From Marivivens donghaensis (GTDB lineage: Bacteria; Pseudomonadota; Alphaproteobacteria; Rhodobacterales; Rhodobacteraceae): a DNA stretch of 64,000 bases. A program made the translations under genes and the position numbers. Under the pieces are notes generated by a model. That model worked only from the letters and a program-made list of their open reading frames with translations. It was not told the DNA's origin and made no database searches. Each line of letters opens with the position of its first letter. The stretch's first letter is position 1. Below, one piece after another: positions 11,642 through 54,309 of this stretch. The stretch spans positions 1 to 64,000 of the forward strand of contig NZ_JALNPR010000006.1 of assembly GCF_023541015.1 (NCBI RefSeq), written 5' to 3'.

Positions 11642-12759
11642 AGTTTCACCAATGTTGCTGTTGCAATGGATGCGATACCTTCTTCGCGACCTGTAAAGCC
11701 GAGCCGTTCTGATGTGGTTGCCTTGACGCTCACACGCGTCTCATCAAGCCCCATGATCCGCGCCATTTCCGCTTTCATCGTCGCTGCGTGCGGACCGACC
11801 TTGGGTCGTTCGCAGATCAGCGTGCAATCAACATGAGTGATGGTAAAGCCGTTTTCACGCGCCAAGGCACATGCGTGTTCGAGGAAAATATAGCTGGCGG
11901 CACCCTTCCATTGTGGATCGGAGGGCGGGAAATGTTGGCCGATGTCGCCCATCCCAAGCGCGCCGTAAATCGCATCCGTCACCGCATGCATCCCAACGTC
12001 CGCGTCCGAATGACCCTTGAGCGCCTTGTCGTGCGGGATTTTTACGCCGCAGAGCCAGACATGATCGCCGTCCTCAAAAGCGTGAACGTCAAACCCGTTG
12101 CCAGTGCGAATATCCATGTCGGCCCTCAATATTGCTTCGGCTCGCGCAAAATCTTCGGGAGCCGTAATTTTAATGTTCGTCTCGTCGCCCGCCACAATGG
12201 TAACGTCAAGCCCAGCCCGCCGTGCGACCTCCACATCATCCGCAGCGTCGCCAACTAGGCTGCGATGGGCGGCAAGGATTGCATGGTAGTGAAACCCTTG
12301 CGGCGTCTGTGCTCGGTAAAGGCCATTTCGGTCCTGCGTTCCAATGACGGTTCCGGCTTCCCCTCGCCAGAGGGCATCTGTCACCACGAGGGCCGGCGCC
12401 GCTGCTTGGTAGGTTTTCAATGCCGTCAAAACACGGTCAATTACGGCTTGGGGCACCAATGGACGCGCTGCATCGTGGATCAATACGAAATCAGGTGCGG
12501 TTTCAACCATCGCCTCAAGCCCCGCCCGAACAGAGGCAGCGCGGGTCGCGCCACCGGCAACACAGCGACACCCCGTCAATTCGGTAGCACGATCCATGTC
12601 GTCGGGATGAAGAACAACGACAACCAGATCACAGCTAGAAAAACGAGCAATGGACCGCGTGAGGATCATCTCGCCCGCGATGCTCCGCCATTGCTTGGGG
12701 ATATCACCGCCCGCTCTGACACCGCGTCCCGCCGCCACAATCAATGCTGCTGTCGTCAT
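11638..12759 (-). CDS. ispDF: bifunctional IspD/IspF isoprenoid enzyme
   Basis: This 373-residue fusion carries out two steps of the MEP pathway. The N-terminal IspD domain (1 to about 214) makes CDP-methylerythritol; it has [16 protein letters not shown] at 9-24. The C-terminal IspF domain (from about 216) makes the cyclic diphosphate; it has the metal ligands Asp224 and His226 in GNGFDVHAF and a full-length trimer domain. Such fusions are well known in alphaproteobacteria. The gene is first in an operon with pgpA and cinA and is divergent from dusB. Confidence 0.97.
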
Positions 12760-46907: not shown

Positions 46908-48095
46908 ATGCCAAGCACGCGCACAAGCCCATCGTTTGCCGATTCAGAATACTGGGATCGTATTGAGAAAACCCGCGCGGCGATGGAAGCCGCTGGCGTT
47001 GATACGATCATCGTCTCCGACCCATCCAATATGGCTTGGCTCACGGGGTACGATGGCTGGTCGTTCTACGTTCATCAGGCCGTGATCCTCGGCTTAGAAG
47101 GCGAACCCATTTGGTGGGGTCGCGGTATGGACGCAGCAGGCGCATTGCGCACCGTTTTCATGCACGAAGACAATATCTTTGGCTATGAAGACAGCTACGT
47201 TCAGAACCCTGACAAACATCCGATGGAAGACCTGTCACGGGTCATAGCGGGCTATGGCTGGGACGAAGGTCGCGTCGGCGTCGAAATGGACAACTACTAT
47301 TTCAGCGCTGCAGCCTATGGATCATTAATCAAAGGTCTGCCAAAGGCGACTTTCGTCGATACGACAGGCCTCGTGAACTGGCAGCGCGCAATCAAAAGCC
47401 CGACCGAACTGACCTACATGCGCCGTGCCGCCGAAATAGTTCAAGCCATGCACGCGCGTATCGCCGAAGTCGCCGAACCAGGTATGCCAAAGCACCATCT
47501 GGTTGCCGAAATTTACCATACCGCGATCAAAGGCGTCGGCGGCCACTGGGGCGACTATCCTGCAATCGTGCCCATGGCACCGTCTGGCCTAGACGCGACC
47601 GCACCACACCTGACCTGGGATGATACACCGCTGCGGACAGGTGAAACGACGTTCTTTGAAATTGCTGGCGTTCACCGCCGCTATCACTGCCCGCAATCCC
47701 GTACGCTGTTCTTTGGCACCATGCCGCAAAAGTTCATCGACGCAGAACATGCGGTGACTGAAGCTACTGCAGCTGCCCTCGAACAAGCGAAACCGGGCAA
47801 CCGCTGCGAAGACGTTGCTAACGCCTTTAACCAGACGCTCAACAAGCTCGGTTTTGTCAAAGACAGTCGTTGCGGCTACGCCATCGGCCTGAGCTATCCG
47901 CCGGATTGGGGCGAACGCACGATGTCGTTCCGCGCGGGCGATAAAACGGTTCTACGCCCGGGGATGACGTTCCACTTTATGCCTGCGCTTTGGCTTGACG
48001 ACGGTGGTATTGAAACGACCGAACCGATTGTTATCACCGAAACTGGTCACGAACTTCTTTGCAAAACCCCTAGCGGTATCGTTATCAAGTCGTAA
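46908..48095 (+). CDS. M24-family hydrolase, ectoine hydrolase (DoeA/EutD)-like
   Basis: This 395-residue pita-bread-fold protein resembles ectoine hydrolases, which open the ectoine ring: VSDPSNMAWLTGYDGWSFYVHQ (about 37-58), GVEMDNYYFSAAAYGSL and GLSYPPDWGERTMSFRAGD match what I recall of that group. Most M24 metal ligands are replaced: FEIAG-RRYHCPQSRT stands where DxG...D is expected, and GYAIGLSYPP where GHGIGxxxHE is expected. This fits the metal-free creatinase/DoeA type, not an aminopeptidase. No other ectoine genes are near, so the substrate is uncertain. The adjacent LysR gene follows after 26 bases. Confidence 0.8.
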   Translation: MPSTRTSPSFADSEYWDRIEKTRAAMEAAGVDTIIVSDPSNMAWLTGYDGWSFYVHQAVILGLEGEPIWWGRGMDAAGALRTVFMHEDNIFGYEDSYVQNPDKHPMEDLSRVIAGYGWDEGRVGVEMDNYYFSAAAYGSLIKGLPKATFVDTTGLVNWQRAIKSPTELTYMRRAAEIVQAMHARIAEVAEPGMPKHHLVAEIYHTAIKGVGGHWGDYPAIVPMAPSGLDATAPHLTWDDTPLRTGETTFFEIAGVHRRYHCPQSRTLFFGTMPQKFIDAEHAVTEATAAALEQAKPGNRCEDVANAFNQTLNKLGFVKDSRCGYAIGLSYPPDWGERTMSFRAGDKTVLRPGMTFHFMPALWLDDGGIETTEPIVITETGHELLCKTPSGIVIKS

Positions 48096-48121: not shown

Positions 48122-49039
48122 ATGAGCGATGTTGAACGACTTGCCGTCCATGACCTAAAACTGCTGCGCGCACTTGTCGTCGTTGCCCGTGAGGGGAACG
48201 TCACACGTGCCGCAGACATCCTGAACCTCTCCCAACCTGCGGTGAGTTTCCAACTGCGCAAGCTGGGTCAATTGAGCGGCCTCGTTTTGTTCAAACGAAC
48301 CGCGACGGGGCTAGAACTTACGAAAGACGGGGCGCTATTGGCGACGAAGGCCGAACAGGTTCTAGGCTCGGTCCAGGACTTCAACCGTCTCCTTCAAACG
48401 ATGCGGACCCATCTTCAGGGCACCTTGCGCGTGGGCACCATCATCGACCCTGAATTCACCCGTTTGGGCGCGTTTTTGCAGCAGATGTTGCAGGTTGGGC
48501 CAGGGGTTTCGACCTCACTTCGGCATGGGATCAGTGGTGAAGTGCTGGACTATCTGCGGAACGACACCTTGGATGTCGGATTTTACCTCGGTGACTTGGA
48601 TCAGCCAGCGGACGCCGAACAGTTCCACGTGCGTCACCTATCTACGCTGACGTATTGCGTGGTGGCGCCACCTGCGCTCTTAGGATCGGCCAAAGACTAC
48701 GATTGGCGCGAACTGGCTGCGTTGCCGTGGATCGGGACACCACCAGCATCGGTTCATAACCGTTTGCTGACAAAAGTTTTTGACCGAATGGGTTTGCGCC
48801 AAAACCAAGTCGCACAGGTCGATCAGGAATCGTCCATGCTCGCAATGGTGCGCACGGGGGTTGGCCTCAGCCTCGCGCGTGAATCCATTGCACTCCGTGA
48901 GGCCCAGTCCGGCAACGTCACCATCCTGACGGGCAAACGACTGGATACATCGCTGAGCTTTCTCTGCCTTGCGCAGCGCCGCGATGATCCAGTTGTTCAA
49001 CTTGCCTTTGAAGCCATTGACGACGTTTGGCCGACTTAA
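48122..49039 (+). CDS. LysR family transcriptional regulator
   Basis: This 305-residue LysR-type protein has the N-terminal winged helix-turn-helix (GNVTRAADILNLSQPAVSFQLRKL, about 25-48) and a periplasmic-binding-like effector domain. It follows the M24 gene on the same strand behind a strong AGAGGAGGG site and runs into the CoA-transferase gene tail-to-tail, with stop codons interleaved (TTAA). In Marinomonas the DMSP-responsive regulator DddR is also a LysR protein next to dddD, so this one could control the nearby catabolic genes. That is inference. Confidence 0.9.
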   Translation: MSDVERLAVHDLKLLRALVVVAREGNVTRAADILNLSQPAVSFQLRKLGQLSGLVLFKRTATGLELTKDGALLATKAEQVLGSVQDFNRLLQTMRTHLQGTLRVGTIIDPEFTRLGAFLQQMLQVGPGVSTSLRHGISGEVLDYLRNDTLDVGFYLGDLDQPADAEQFHVRHLSTLTYCVVAPPALLGSAKDYDWRELAALPWIGTPPASVHNRLLTKVFDRMGLRQNQVAQVDQESSMLAMVRTGVGLSLARESIALREAQSGNVTILTGKRLDTSLSFLCLAQRRDDPVVQLAFEAIDDVWPT

Positions 49040-51549
49040 CTCGGCAGATATTCTTTGCTCCACGTTTCGCTGATCGATCCGTTTTGCAACATCACATCGA
49101 TGTCGGTCTCGTTATAGCCAAGCTCAAGCAAGACCGACCGCGTTGAGGCCCCGTATTTTTCGGCAGGATCCATCATATTCACAGCACTACGAGTGGGGCG
49201 AACGGCAAATGGATCGAGCTGTGTGACCGTATGGCCGCTCGGGTGGTCCTCATAGACCGAGAACGAATAGCTGCCGCGATCAATGCCCGGAGTGCCATCA
49301 GGCGTCCGAACGTAGGCCGCGCGCAAGGCGTCGATGTTGTCACAGACCGCCGCGCCAATATCATTCGCCCGCAACACTTCTAGCCATGCCGCAGAGGTAT
49401 CATTGGCAAACACGCCAGCAAGGAACCCTTCGCGTTCCTCATGGGGCAGGGCGGACAGTCCCGCGAAAGCCTCGATCGCTTCTAGGCGTCCAATGTCTTT
49501 CTCGTAGGTTGAGAGCAGGAGGTATTCCCCTGACGCCGTGTAATAGAACCGCGACAAGGCATCGTAGCCGTTTACATACCGCCCTGACGGTTCATCGAAC
49601 AGACCACGCCCAGTGTAGTCATAGCAGAACGGCACCTGCAGCAGACCGCTGTTCGCAGAAAGCGATGTACGACCGCGACCCGTTTTGCCCGTCTTCAGTT
49701 TTTGATACAGGGCTGTCGCGACGCCCAATGCGCCGCCAAACCCACACATCACGTCAATCGTACCAACGTGCGCATGTTCCTCTGGTTCGCTCATCAGCCC
49801 ACCAAAGCGCAACATAATACCCGTCGTCGCCTGCACGAGGTCATCGTAGCCCACATAATCCGTCCGAGGGCCACGACGCACGCCGCTGAAACAGTCGAGC
49901 TTGCAGAAGATCGCATCGGGGTTCAGCCGCGCGAGGTTATCCGCGTCCAATCCCATCGCTTTGATCTGGTTGTCTGGCGCGTTCCAAACGATCACATCGA
50001 CGGACCGCACGAGGTTCTCAAATACCTTGCGACCATGTTCGGACGTGATGTCTGTCAGAACTGACTTCTTGCCGCGCATGTGCGACATGCCAAAAATCAC
50101 CGTGTTCCACGCGTCGTACATAGGCTTCGATGGATCAAGCTTGATCACCTCAGCGCCAAACCGTGCCAGATAGCTCACCGAATGCGGGCCTGCGATCACG
50201 TTGCAAAGGTCGAGAACGCGGACACCTTCGAGCCAGCCAGACCGATCGTTCGGATCGGTCACACGCGGCAGTTTGGTGCGTTGTTTCTTTAACTGGGCAA
50301 GGGCACTGCTTACATCGACCCAACGGCGTGGGATCGGATAGAGCGCGGCTTCACCGCTTTCCTCTAACCAGACGACAGGTCCAGGTTGGATCATCATTCC
50401 GTATTCAGGATCCTCAACGTCGATCATAAGCCCAGAGGTTTCCGCGTGGTCGTCATTGATCCATTCCTGCAACCAGCGTTGCGGCGCACCGGGGAATTTG
50501 TTGCGACCAAAAATGCGTTCCCACTCTTTGGCGGTTCGCGTGATGAACACTTCTTTCATCTTAGCCGCGATCTTATCCGCCCAGAATTTCGGGAGCGGAT
50601 AAACACCCAGTGACACGTCGGACGACCATTCGCTGGTGGGCTTGTAGGTATCGTCTTCTTCCTGAAGGCCTTCGGCGACAAGATCGTCATAGATACCCAG
50701 CGTCTGCAGACACCGTTTCGCGTGGGTCTTATGGCTCGGACAGACGACATAGAACATCCGACCGTCCTTGCAGAGGTAGCTGCGGTAGAATGGGTCAAGG
50801 AGCTCCTGCAGCTCTTCATAGGTCACATTCATCGGCAGGCCTTCGGTCCGACGACGGGTGATCTCTTGTTCGCGCTGAGTGATATAGCGTTCGGGCAAAC
50901 CGTCGATCTTGATCGAGTTGTAGCACAGGCCTTCCATAACCGCGCTCGCCAACGGCACCTCGATCTGATCACCCAACCCCGTACGTTCCCGTGCCTGAAG
51001 CGCCAAAACCGCAGCAGAGGCCGCCATCATCGCACCGTAGGACGAGGCGAGGGGTAGGGGAGAGAACGAAGGGTTCACGCCCATCAGAACACGGTTCAGC
51101 CCCATATCCGTAAACACGCCCGAACTCGCCGCTATGACGCTTTCGTAAGCGCGCAACTCACGACGTTCTTCGTCCGCTGACGCAAAACCGGGAATCGACA
51201 CGGTGATCAGGTCAGGCTGTGACTGGCGCAATTCCGCGAAATCAATGCCGAGGTTCGCCAGTTTCCCCGGACGGAAATTTTCGACCACGATATCAGCTTC
51301 CGCGATCAGCGCTTTGGCCTGTTCGACACCCTCGGCAGACTTCAGATCGATCGTTACGATCATCTTGTTGCGGTTCAGGGTCGCGTTCGCGGGGCTCTGC
51401 CACATCGGACCACCGGGCGGGTCGATATGCACCACCGTAGCCCCCAGATCGCCAAGGATCATCGCAACCGCGGGGCCAGCGATATATTGTCCAAAATCAA
51501 TGACTTTAACTCCGGCGAGAGGGAGCGTGTCACGGGAAGGGATGGTCAT
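49036..51549 (-). CDS. double CaiB-type CoA-transferase, DddD-like (candidate DMSP CoA-transferase/lyase)
   Basis: This 837-residue protein has two fused class III CoA-transferase (CaiB/BaiF) domains: about 10-410 and 437-825. This size and architecture is that of DddD, which loads DMSP with CoA and cleaves it to dimethyl sulfide and a 3-hydroxypropionyl product. The catalytic Asp occurs only in the second half, Asp599 in HVGTIDVMCGFGG, close to the catalytic Asp602 reported for Marinomonas DddD; the first domain has no Asp at that site. Some DddD-like proteins in roseobacters lack shown activity, so dddD is not asserted. It follows the GMC gene by 24 bases. Confidence 0.82.
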   Translation of the reverse strand: MTIPSRDTLPLAGVKVIDFGQYIAGPAVAMILGDLGATVVHIDPPGGPMWQSPANATLNRNKMIVTIDLKSAEGVEQAKALIAEADIVVENFRPGKLANLGIDFAELRQSQPDLITVSIPGFASADEERRELRAYESVIAASSGVFTDMGLNRVLMGVNPSFSPLPLASSYGAMMAASAAVLALQARERTGLGDQIEVPLASAVMEGLCYNSIKIDGLPERYITQREQEITRRRTEGLPMNVTYEELQELLDPFYRSYLCKDGRMFYVVCPSHKTHAKRCLQTLGIYDDLVAEGLQEEDDTYKPTSEWSSDVSLGVYPLPKFWADKIAAKMKEVFITRTAKEWERIFGRNKFPGAPQRWLQEWINDDHAETSGLMIDVEDPEYGMMIQPGPVVWLEESGEAALYPIPRRWVDVSSALAQLKKQRTKLPRVTDPNDRSGWLEGVRVLDLCNVIAGPHSVSYLARFGAEVIKLDPSKPMYDAWNTVIFGMSHMRGKKSVLTDITSEHGRKVFENLVRSVDVIVWNAPDNQIKAMGLDADNLARLNPDAIFCKLDCFSGVRRGPRTDYVGYDDLVQATTGIMLRFGGLMSEPEEHAHVGTIDVMCGFGGALGVATALYQKLKTGKTGRGRTSLSANSGLLQVPFCYDYTGRGLFDEPSGRYVNGYDALSRFYYTASGEYLLLSTYEKDIGRLEAIEAFAGLSALPHEEREGFLAGVFANDTSAAWLEVLRANDIGAAVCDNIDALRAAYVRTPDGTPGIDRGSYSFSVYEDHPSGHTVTQLDPFAVRPTRSAVNMMDPAEKYGASTRSVLLELGYNETDIDVMLQNGSISETWSKEYLPS

Positions 51550-51573
51550 TTCCGAAATCCTGAAAAGGGGGTG

Positions 51574-53238
51574 TTAGTGTGCATCGGCAAGGATATATCC
51601 CGCCGCTTTTTCAGCAATCATCAGCGTTGGCGAATTCGTATTGCCCGACGTGATCTTTGGCATCACGCCCGCATCTGCAACGCGTAAGCCCTTGATACCT
51701 TTGACGTGCAAACGGCTATCAACAACCGCCATATCATCGTCCGCGCGTCCCATTTTGGTGGTGCCAACAGGATGGAAAATCGTGCTGGCGATGTCACCAG
51801 CAAGGCGGGCCAATTCCTCGTCCGTTTGGAACTGAGGACCCGGTTTCCATTCGACGGGTTTGTATTTGGCCAAAGCAGGCTGCGCCACGATATTACGGAC
51901 CTGACGAATACTCTCTGCTGCGACCAAACGGTCCTCTTCAGTTGAGAGGTAGTTGGGCGCAATTTTCGGCGCGTCAAACGGGTTAGCAGATCGAAGCGTA
52001 ACGCTGCCTGTCGAGGTCGGGTTAAGGTTACAGACACTCGCCGTGAAGGCTGGAAAATCGTGCAACGGATCACCAAATGCATCGAGGCTCAGCGGTTGCA
52101 CATGATACTGCAAGTTGGCATGGGTGCGGGATGCATCGGACCGCGTGAACGCCCCAAGTTGAGACGGCGACATGCTCATTGGGCCAGTGCGTTTTAGCGC
52201 ATATTCCAGCCCGAACATCGCCTTGCCAATCAAACTATTCGCAAGCGTATTCAGCGTCTTAGCGCCTTCTATTTTGAACACGGTACGGATTTGAAGGTGA
52301 TCTTGGAGGTTGCGACCGACACCTTGAACATTGGCAACAACAGGTATGCCATTCGCGGTTAGTTCTTCGGCGGGGCCGACACCTGACAACATCAGAATTT
52401 GCGGCGAACCGATTGCGCCAGCGGACAAAACGACTTCTTTATTAGCAGCGACAGTCACCTGAGCACCTTTGCGGTTCACAACCGCGCCGGTGCATTTCAA
52501 CTGACCATTAGCATCGGTCTCAAAGGTGAGTTTCTCGACCTGAGCCTCAGTCCAAATGGCTAGATTTGGTCGCTTAGACGCTGGCCGCAGAAACGCCTTG
52601 GAACTATTCCAACGCCAGCCAGAGCGTTGATTTACTTCGAAATATCCAACACCTTCATTGTCACCAGTGTTAAAATCTTCGGTGCGGCGCACACCAGATT
52701 GTTCAGCAGCTTCAGCAAAACTATCGAGGATATCCCATCTCAATCGCTGTTTTTCGATACGCCATTCACCACCATGACCGTGCAAATCGGAAAAACGCCC
52801 ATTGTCGCCATCTGCAGGATCTGCGTCATCGTCCAATTTGTAGTGATTTTCATGAGCCTTGAAAGCGGGCAGGGTGTTTTCCCACGACCAATCGTCATCA
52901 CCCGTAAGGTCCGCCCAATTGTCGTAGTCGCGTGCTTGACCGCGCATGTAGATCATACCGTTGATCGACGAACATCCGCCGAGCGTCTTACCGCGCGGAT
53001 ACCGCAACGACCGACCGTTCAAACCAGCTTCGGCTTCGGTATTAAAAAGCCAATCCGTCCGAGGGTTACCGATGCAATATAGATAGCCGACAGGAATATG
53101 TATCCACGGGTAATTGTCTTTTTTACCAGCTTCGAGGAGTAGAACACGGTTCTTTGGGTTAGCAGAAAGACGGTTCGCAAGAAGACATCCAGCTGTCCCA
53201 GCGCCAACAACGACATAGTCAAAGGTCGTAGTGCTCAT
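51574..53238 (-). CDS. GMC family FAD-dependent alcohol/choline dehydrogenase-like oxidoreductase
   Basis: This 554-residue flavoprotein has the FAD-binding GAGTAGCLLANRL at 13-25, the GMC signature regions RYPRGKTLGGCSSINGMIYMRG and GAIGSPQILMLSGVGP, and the active-site His489 (FHPVGTTKMG) and Asn533 (SGNTNSPT). Relatives oxidise choline, polyols and other alcohols. The DddA enzyme of Halomonas, which oxidises 3-hydroxypropionate from DMSP, is of this family. It is the first gene of a two-gene operon with the DddD-like protein, behind a GGGAGGCG site, which supports a shared pathway. The substrate is inferred. Confidence 0.88.
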   Translation of the reverse strand: MSTTTFDYVVVGAGTAGCLLANRLSANPKNRVLLLEAGKKDNYPWIHIPVGYLYCIGNPRTDWLFNTEAEAGLNGRSLRYPRGKTLGGCSSINGMIYMRGQARDYDNWADLTGDDDWSWENTLPAFKAHENHYKLDDDADPADGDNGRFSDLHGHGGEWRIEKQRLRWDILDSFAEAAEQSGVRRTEDFNTGDNEGVGYFEVNQRSGWRWNSSKAFLRPASKRPNLAIWTEAQVEKLTFETDANGQLKCTGAVVNRKGAQVTVAANKEVVLSAGAIGSPQILMLSGVGPAEELTANGIPVVANVQGVGRNLQDHLQIRTVFKIEGAKTLNTLANSLIGKAMFGLEYALKRTGPMSMSPSQLGAFTRSDASRTHANLQYHVQPLSLDAFGDPLHDFPAFTASVCNLNPTSTGSVTLRSANPFDAPKIAPNYLSTEEDRLVAAESIRQVRNIVAQPALAKYKPVEWKPGPQFQTDEELARLAGDIASTIFHPVGTTKMGRADDDMAVVDSRLHVKGIKGLRVADAGVMPKITSGNTNSPTLMIAEKAAGYILADAH

Positions 53239-53353
53239 GAAATTCAGCGCCTCCCGTCGCGTATTTGATCGGGACGAGGGTAGCTAAACAGAGGATCAAC
53301 TCCCAATGAAATCTTGCACGAGAGGATATCAAAGGAATTTATAAACACTTAAG

Positions 53354-53437: not shown

Positions 53438-53466
53438 GCATAAAAGGTGCATAATCAGTATTATGC
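53438..53466. promoter_or_regulatory. three GCATAA half-sites, candidate operator between the GMC and LuxR genes
   Basis: GCATAA occurs at 53438-53443 and 53449-53454, spaced 11 bases, and as TTATGC at 53461-53466. The last two form GCATAAT-CAGT-ATTATGC, a perfect 7-base inverted repeat. It lies 90 bases before the LuxR gene and about 200 before the GMC gene. The binding regulator is unknown; LuxR or LysR are candidates. Confidence 0.5.
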
Positions 53467-53556: not shown

Positions 53557-54309
53557 ATGAACTTTATTCGTCTCCTCGAAGAAATCACGAACGCTCCGCG
53601 CGTTGACGTTCTTTGGAGCTTGATGACTGAAGCCATGGCGGGATACGGCTTTGATCGTTTGATTTTTGGGTACACGCGGTATCGGACCGAACATTCTTTG
53701 GGCGATCCACTCGACTGGGTTCTGCTGACCAATCAGTCGCCAGAATACATGCGGCACTTCATCGATGAAGGTTTGTATTTCAACGCTCCGATGGTTCGCT
53801 GGGCGCTGGAAAATGAAGGCGCCTGTAGCTGGTCTTGGCTCCATGATCGGATCGCTGCAGGCGAACTGAGCGCCGCAGAAATCGCAGCGTTAGAGTTTAA
53901 TCGATCGATGGATGTTGTCGCTGGCTACACGATCAGTTTCAGTTCCATTTCCGCTCGGACCAAAGGCGCCATTGCGCTGACTGGACGCAAAGGCCTAAGC
54001 CAAGCTGATGTGGATCGAATTTGGGCCGAACATGGCCGCAAAATCGTTCTCATTAACAATGTAGCTTATCTCAAGTTAATGACCCTACCCTACTCCCATG
54101 CGCGACCTCTGACAAAACGTCAGCGCGAGGTTCTCGAATGGGTCGGTGACGGAAAAACGACCCAAGATATTGCACAGATTATGGGCCTTACGGCGGCAAC
54201 AGTTGAGAAACATTTGCGCCTAGCACGCGACAATCTCGACGTCGACACCACCGCACAAGCCGTTCTAAAGGCTGCATTTTTCAACCAAATGTTTGTGATA
54301 GACCCCTAA
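53557..54309 (+). CDS. LuxR family regulator with autoinducer-binding domain (solo, altered pocket)
   Basis: This 250-residue protein has an N-terminal autoinducer-binding domain (about 15-165) and a C-terminal GerE/LuxR helix-turn-helix (about 180-240; LTKRQREVLEWVGDG, MGLTAATVEKHLRLAR). Aligned without gaps to TraR (positions +7), the canonical Trp57, Tyr61 and Asp70 are Tyr64, Phe68 and Ala77, while Pro71 and Trp85 remain as Pro78 and Trp92. Asp70 normally holds the lactone amide, so the ligand is probably not a standard acyl-homoserine lactone. No luxI gene is nearby. No strong ribosome site precedes the ATG. Confidence 0.9.
   Translation: MNFIRLLEEITNAPRVDVLWSLMTEAMAGYGFDRLIFGYTRYRTEHSLGDPLDWVLLTNQSPEYMRHFIDEGLYFNAPMVRWALENEGACSWSWLHDRIAAGELSAAEIAALEFNRSMDVVAGYTISFSSISARTKGAIALTGRKGLSQADVDRIWAEHGRKIVLINNVAYLKLMTLPYSHARPLTKRQREVLEWVGDGKTTQDIAQIMGLTAATVEKHLRLARDNLDVDTTAQAVLKAAFFNQMFVIDP

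Follow-up and report, generated by a model that had tools for sequence, protein, structure and literature searches.

The window analysed here, a stretch of 64,000 nucleotides from Marivivens donghaensis, contains two closely spaced minus-strand genes that resemble the core of a module for cleavage of DMSP, an algal osmolyte that DddD is known to convert into the gas dimethyl sulfide. The first, a gene for a GMC flavoenzyme of 554 aa (51574–53238), encodes both GMC_oxred_N and GMC_oxred_C domains and probably specifies a DddA-type 3-hydroxypropionate (3-HP) dehydrogenase, as suggested by its Pfam domains, its partner statistics, its tree position and motifs, and the order of mmsA and GMC genes in Halomonas. 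After a gap of 24 bp it is followed by dddD (49036–51549), with which it is presumably co-transcribed and whose 837-aa product is a double-domain class III CoA-transferase and predicted DMSP lyase according to Pfam (CoA_transf_3 in two stretches, E 4e-115), tree, Asp position, and diagnostic alignment columns. On the plus strand, a LysR gene (48122–49039) encoding HTH and substrate domains converges on dddD and overlaps its end by 4 bp; identity and effector-site residues place its product with the AcuZ/DddZ-type regulators. It is preceded, 26 bp away and on the same strand, by doeA (46908–48095), annotated as an ectoine hydrolase gene from its TIGR02993 score and its match to a solved DoeA. 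The coordinates, strands, and lengths of the pair, as well as the converging LysR gene, agree with an earlier description of this DNA made from its letters only (the sequence-only reading), which had proposed the pair as a candidate DMSP module and had not mentioned doeA.

Upstream of the GMC gene, on the minus strand, lies a putative LysR operator (53295–53344), and beyond it, divergent from the GMC gene, a LuxR-type gene (53557–54309) in which Pfam recognizes an autoinducer-binding domain; its product is kept at 98% in the sister species. The space between these two genes also holds a perfect 7-bp inverted repeat, GCATAAT-N4-ATTATGC (53449–53466), the sole such match in the window (0.11 expected when up to two mismatches are allowed). 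We rejected this palindrome as the LysR operator because its arms are shorter in the sister species and it is missing among the palindromes listed for the other GMC genes.

Family placement and active site of DddD

Searched against plasmids with tblastn, the 837-aa protein is 69.9% identical over its entire length to a homolog encoded on pNGR234b of Sinorhizobium fredii NGR234, and 68.6–71.2% identical to its counterparts in the best 32 plasmid records (H1–H32), many of them near-duplicates from Agrobacterium. A tree of 38 proteins, hand-chosen from 110 DddD frames, places it in a 12-row branch (support 100/100) together with those of NGR234, Phaeobacter piscinae, and others, including the sister species, whose DddD is 98% identical to that of the window. 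Beside this alpha-type branch stands a 17-row branch of gamma-type DddDs, to which the window protein is only about 55% identical, whereas six DddD-like proteins (from Ruegeria AD91A, D. shibae, and others) are found across a long, fully supported branch, a position on which we rejected membership of the window protein in the D. shibae type. The protein groups with the NGR234 homolog and apart from the DddD-like rows. In the accessible parts of the two sources, the NGR234 DddD (AAQ87407.1) is listed as functionally ratified (PMC8520302) and NGR234 is named among the dddD carriers (PMC3338564); the plasmid record is unannotated, and we infer that the pNGR234b locus corresponds to AAQ87407.1.

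The residues agree with this placement. We defined 78 diagnostic columns whose residue is shared by 95% or more of 82 gamma-type DddDs and, by construction, lacking in all eight DddD-like proteins; the window protein keeps 65 of them and that of NGR234 keeps 70, within the 59–70 found among the 13 alpha-type proteins. Together with the tandem CoA_transf_3 layout, a length within the range of about 830–840 aa, and the branch shared with the NGR234 homolog, this makes the assignment to the DddD family proper, whose layout and length the sequence-only reading had recognized, well supported. That reading had also placed Asp599, in domain 2, near Asp602 of Marinomonas DddD, which we take with it to be the catalytic residue. 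The correspondence proved correct, since Asp599 aligns with residue 602 itself in ten Marinomonas loci, strain MWYL1 not being among these. The domain-2 Asp motif is present in 109 of the 110 DddD frames, the one exception being truncated; the domain-1 pattern was detected in 85. As read from the alignment, the position of the formyl-CoA transferase aspartate is occupied in domain 1 by Ser169, and a serine is found there in all nine proteins of one alignment; to our knowledge, DddD domain 1 is devoid of a catalytic Asp. A literature search for DddD with Asp602 returned nothing relevant.

The GMC partner, the LysR regulator, and a putative operator

Immediately upstream of dddD and in the same orientation, all 13 alpha-type DddD loci compared (window included) have a GMC gene, and the enzymes of the 12 others are 72–97% identical to that of the window. 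Likewise, comparison of the two match lists placed a GMC match next to dddD in each of the 32 best plasmid records. Among 95 DddD loci (13 alpha-type and 82 gamma-type, a GMC being counted at 55% identity or more within 9 kb), 17 have a GMC gene and 66 have dddB, which encodes an iron alcohol dehydrogenase. No locus combines the two, and 12, several of them on short contigs, lack both. Left out of this count were 13 short forms or copies (including L010, a short form of L122) and two loci, L122 and L093, whose DddD frame did not pass; L122 (genome G076) is apparently a broken dddD copy that matches only DddD residues 8–368. Since the GMC enzyme never occurs with dddB in these loci, it probably carries out the DddA step, and oxidation of 3-HP is the most likely activity of the window enzyme. 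In the accessible text of two studies, dddA is described in place of dddB in Halomonadaceae (PMC9327192) and dddC-dddA-acuN-acuK as one unit in Halomonas D47 (PMC13104084). Halomonas sp. DQ26W, whose DddD is gamma-type, encodes a GMC enzyme 69% identical to that of the window behind mmsA, the only other GMC found being 39% identical, and in a GMC tree whose comparison set did not include HTNK1 DddA, the DQ26W and window enzymes share one branch. The window enzyme contains the motifs HPVGT at 489 and GNTNSPT at 532, positions that in GMC enzymes hold the catalytic His and Asn. Taken together, the DddD tree, the diagnostic residues, and the recurring GMC partner favor a DddD plus DddA-type module.

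The same GMC enzyme is also found without dddD in the stretches read from six records, mostly accompanied by the LysR gene (Ruegeria TM1040, Paracoccus seriniphilus, Shinella sumterensis, Ensifer canadensis, and Pararhizobium), with neither dddD nor LysR in the case of Tistrella, so that DMSP need not be the origin of its substrate. The enzymes encoded beside dddD are scattered over the GMC tree (8 changes, versus 10.2 in shuffles). Four gamma-type DddD loci of alpha- or betaproteobacteria (L014, L035, L042, and L060) carry nearby a GMC gene (57–75%) instead of dddB; both LysR types are present in L035 and L060. The Halomonas PA16-9 locus (L134) contains an apparently broken GMC gene, with a match in two pieces and a frame of 386 aa. 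Literature searches for DddD with the word GMC, which reflect word usage only and with subscription papers mostly outside reach, and for DddD with Rhizobium, dddA, and alphaproteobacteria, found no paper.

Leaving the sister species aside, the window LysR shares 42–60% identity with the GMC-linked LysRs, and 44% with the LysR encoded beside the mmsA-GMC pair of Halomonas PA16-9, versus 26–28% with three DddR-type rows aligned over more than 150 residues, values on which we rejected a DddR-type regulator such as that of Marinomonas. The convergence on the pair reported in the sequence-only reading stands, but its comparison with DddR does not. According to the accessible text of PMC13104084, AcuZ of Halomonas D47 binds 3-HP and acrylate, not DMSP, and its 3-HP binding is impaired by mutation of Ser130, Tyr174, His208, or Glu232. 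In a 38-row alignment, uncertain for LysRs so unlike each other, and with AcuZ numbering transferred from the Halomonas PA16-9 LysR, the window protein keeps Tyr174, Ser206, His208, Gln231, Glu232, Trp199, Thr202, and Leu247. This set is found in all 19 rows of the same type, except for a His in place of Gln231 in two of them, and in none of the 19 other LysR rows. The putative 3-HP site accordingly has Tyr174, His208, and Glu232, with Ser130 matching only after a two-residue shift, while the acrylate site (Trp199, Val201, Thr202, and Leu247) keeps three residues and has Gly for Val201. By these sequence measures the window LysR is of the Halomonas AcuZ/DddZ kind, a family of 3-HP and acrylate sensors, and not of the DddR kind.

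A half-site pair similar to ATATTA-N7-TAATAT or ATATTA-N7-TTATAA precedes 16 of the 20 GMC genes examined, and at these same 16 sites a ATTTGTCATTGGATTT-like element begins exactly 30 nt after it. Of the four other upstream regions, those of L121 and L139 gave no good site and those of the window and L129 were withheld deliberately. The window candidate (53295–53344, TTATAAATTCCTTTGATAT plus TTTCATTGG) has the same 30-nt register. A matrix built on 15 of the 16 sites (L131 was omitted as a near copy of L130), and therefore without the window, ranks it first among all window positions on both strands, with a score of 11.3 against −1.0 for the next, although the site had already been seen before the matrix was constructed. 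The highest score in 20 shuffled windows, which preserve single-base content only, was 7.7. The window site is nevertheless much weaker than the training sites (40–68); outside the training set, the sister species scored 14.0 and Limimaricola 26.9. In Halomonas PA16-9, a site scoring 18.5 is located in the gap between lysR and mmsA; it includes TCAATTGATC, which resembles the AATTGATT needed by AcuZ, for which the accessible text of PMC13104084 gives TATA-N8-GATA as the other binding element. A second, weaker operator-like match (9.3) is located at position 12192 of the same PA16-9 locus, away from the lysR-mmsA gap. Upstream of the window GMC gene AATTGATT is absent, and TATA-N8-GATA is absent from the whole window; there is a single TATA-N9-GATA, which lies inside the 53295–53344 site. 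No operator site was found in the stretch read from Halomonas DQ26W (−17.1), in G077 (−17.6), or in Methylovirgula (−1.8).

Nine further alpha-type loci have this LysR (sister species excluded), and in all of them its gene is divergent from the GMC gene; only in the window and in the sister species (G102) is it convergent behind dddD and adjoining doeA. The locus appears to be a locally rearranged version of a module found repeatedly among other alphaproteobacteria, its distinctive feature being the position of its regulator, behind dddD, convergent, and next to doeA.

Genomic context and alternative readings

The genome (2,840,705 bases in 11 contigs, 99.99% complete) contains no BCCT match anywhere. 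Three of its OpuAC proteins exceed the cut-off and a fourth falls short of it; one of these belongs to a proXWV set 44, 65, and 55% identical to the NGR234 proXWV. It also encodes a DddC-like MmsA-type dehydrogenase (57%) on another contig, AcuI (454 bits, versus a cut-off of 297.25), and a second, BetA-like GMC (40%) beside an aldehyde dehydrogenase gene. No dddT-, ProU-, or dddC-type gene lies beside the pair, so that the window does not hold a complete linked ddd cluster. The sequence-only reading had seen no dddT- or dddC-type gene and considered the arrangement unusual; the absence is real, but the arrangement is not unusual, since only four of the 13 alpha-type loci have a linked transporter of the two kinds counted (one BCCT and three ProU-type). 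The pair is of the known DddD/DddA kind, and reading it in terms of DMSP is well supported, though less unusual than was proposed. With a threshold of E 1e-60, DddD matches were found in four of the seven genomes of the genus and in eight of 100 genomes of the family, own genome included, three of the latter matches being DddD-like (43–46%) and one a fragment. At 1e-100, 11 of 385 genomes of the class have a match: the alpha-type ones are those of this genome and one other (72%), and the remaining ones comprise three at 43–45% and six at 33–34%.

The position of the LysR gene raises the question of which operon it serves. Its product might regulate doeA, the convergence on dddD being an accident of rearrangement, as could be suggested by the 26-bp same-strand spacing and by a DoeA-family match (52–98%) in each of the six further genomes searched within the genus. 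The neighboring M24 protein scores over the DoeA cut-off (TIGR02993, 621.1 bits versus 613) and matches a solved DoeA (E 1.4e-156), for which reason we rejected DddP, in a comparison that included no DddP sequence; no DoeB exceeds its cut-off in the genome (73.2 versus 402.7). We nevertheless find it unlikely that the LysR works for doeA, as its relatives adjoin the GMC gene in nine other alpha-type loci and the window GMC gene still has such a shared-type site in front of it, with no comparable site before doeA. It is possible that doeA is the operon partner of the LysR gene.

Another zwitterionic osmolyte could be the substrate of the pair, with a different leaving group released by the first enzyme and the resulting hydroxy acid, or a choline-like alcohol, oxidized by the GMC. 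Several traits point in this direction: dddD of rhizobial loci adjoins a transporter of the ProU (betaine) type, choline dehydrogenase models give the GMC its highest scores (though below their cut-offs), the next neighbor is the ectoine hydrolase gene, and 13 of the 78 diagnostic columns differ. We judge this quite improbable in view of the placement of DddD with NGR234, the AcuZ-type LysR with its 3-HP site residues, the mutual exclusion of GMC and dddB, and the separate BetA-like GMC next to an aldehyde dehydrogenase gene. That the 837-aa protein is instead a DddD-like protein of the D. shibae/Ruegeria AD91A type acting on another substrate is extremely improbable: such proteins exist in the same family (3 of 100 genomes, 43–46% identity), but they stand across the long, fully supported branch and none of their eight loci, three of them with only ~1.5 kb of flank, has a GMC, dddB, MmsA, or LysR partner.

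Five of these eight DddD-like loci (L017, L019, L123, L159, and L160; 40–46% to the window protein) have a neighbor related to either of two proteins, one of them annotated as N,N-dimethylformamidase beta-subunit-like, in part with an AraC-type or other HTH gene, and possibly represent a separate pathway.

Proposed pathway and comparison with known systems

We consider it likely that the locus is a DddD-type DMSP cleavage module equipped with a DddA-type GMC enzyme and an AcuZ-type LysR. DMSP may enter the cell via a ProU-type ABC transporter encoded elsewhere in the genome. DddD, with acetyl-CoA and Asp599, would activate it and release dimethyl sulfide, yielding 3-HP or its CoA ester; the GMC enzyme, encoded in the same putative operon, would oxidize 3-HP to malonate semialdehyde, and a generic MmsA-type dehydrogenase encoded elsewhere would perform the DddC step to acetyl-CoA. 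The LysR is predicted to sense 3-HP and to switch on the GMC-dddD operon from 53295–53344. Dimethyl sulfide is a climate-active gas, and DMSP cleavage is one of its main sources. If this pathway operates, the family of D. shibae gains another DddD carrier, alpha-type DddD travels with a GMC enzyme instead of DddB, and a concrete candidate site with a 3-HP-type regulator becomes available for testing; it would also suggest that an assay is required before the D. shibae-type DddD-like proteins, with their other neighbors, are classed as DMSP lyases. More speculatively, and with a modest chance of being right, a 3-HP-sensing LysR and a GMC gene under one conserved operator could form a unit common to alpha- and gammaproteobacteria, standalone in some genomes and joined with dddD in others, so that dimethyl sulfide production follows the signal of its by-product; in this species, the regulator would have moved into an operon with ectoine hydrolase, tying DMSP cleavage to ectoine breakdown.

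Compared with known systems, the locus shares the DddD family and the catalytic-type Asp with the Marinomonas-type dddD/dddT-dddB-dddC-dddR cluster, which differs in having an iron alcohol dehydrogenase (dddB) where the window has a GMC, a DddR-type LysR, and a BCCT transporter. With the ddd/acu cluster of Halomonas D47/HTNK1 (dddTD, dddCA-acuNK, acuZ), considered from its description in the accessible parts of PMC13104084 and PMC9327192 and not from its sequence, it has in common DddD, a dddA step replacing dddB, and an AcuZ-type LysR, whereas the window is devoid of adjoining dddT, dddC, and acuNK and gamma-type DddD is distant from its own. The lysR-GMC-dddD-BCCT-lysR-mmsA module on a plasmid of Phaeobacter piscinae has the same GMC-dddD order (DddD 71%, GMC 73%) but carries its transporter and dehydrogenase linked, on a plasmid predicted to be conjugative. 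In the lysR-GMC-dddD-proXWV locus of S. fredii NGR234 (pNGR234b), the genes for the LysR and the GMC enzyme are divergent, and dddD has a ProU-type transporter after it; as in the window, the GMC gene lies directly before dddD, and all three proteins have counterparts here (DddD 70%, GMC 76%, and LysR 57% identity).
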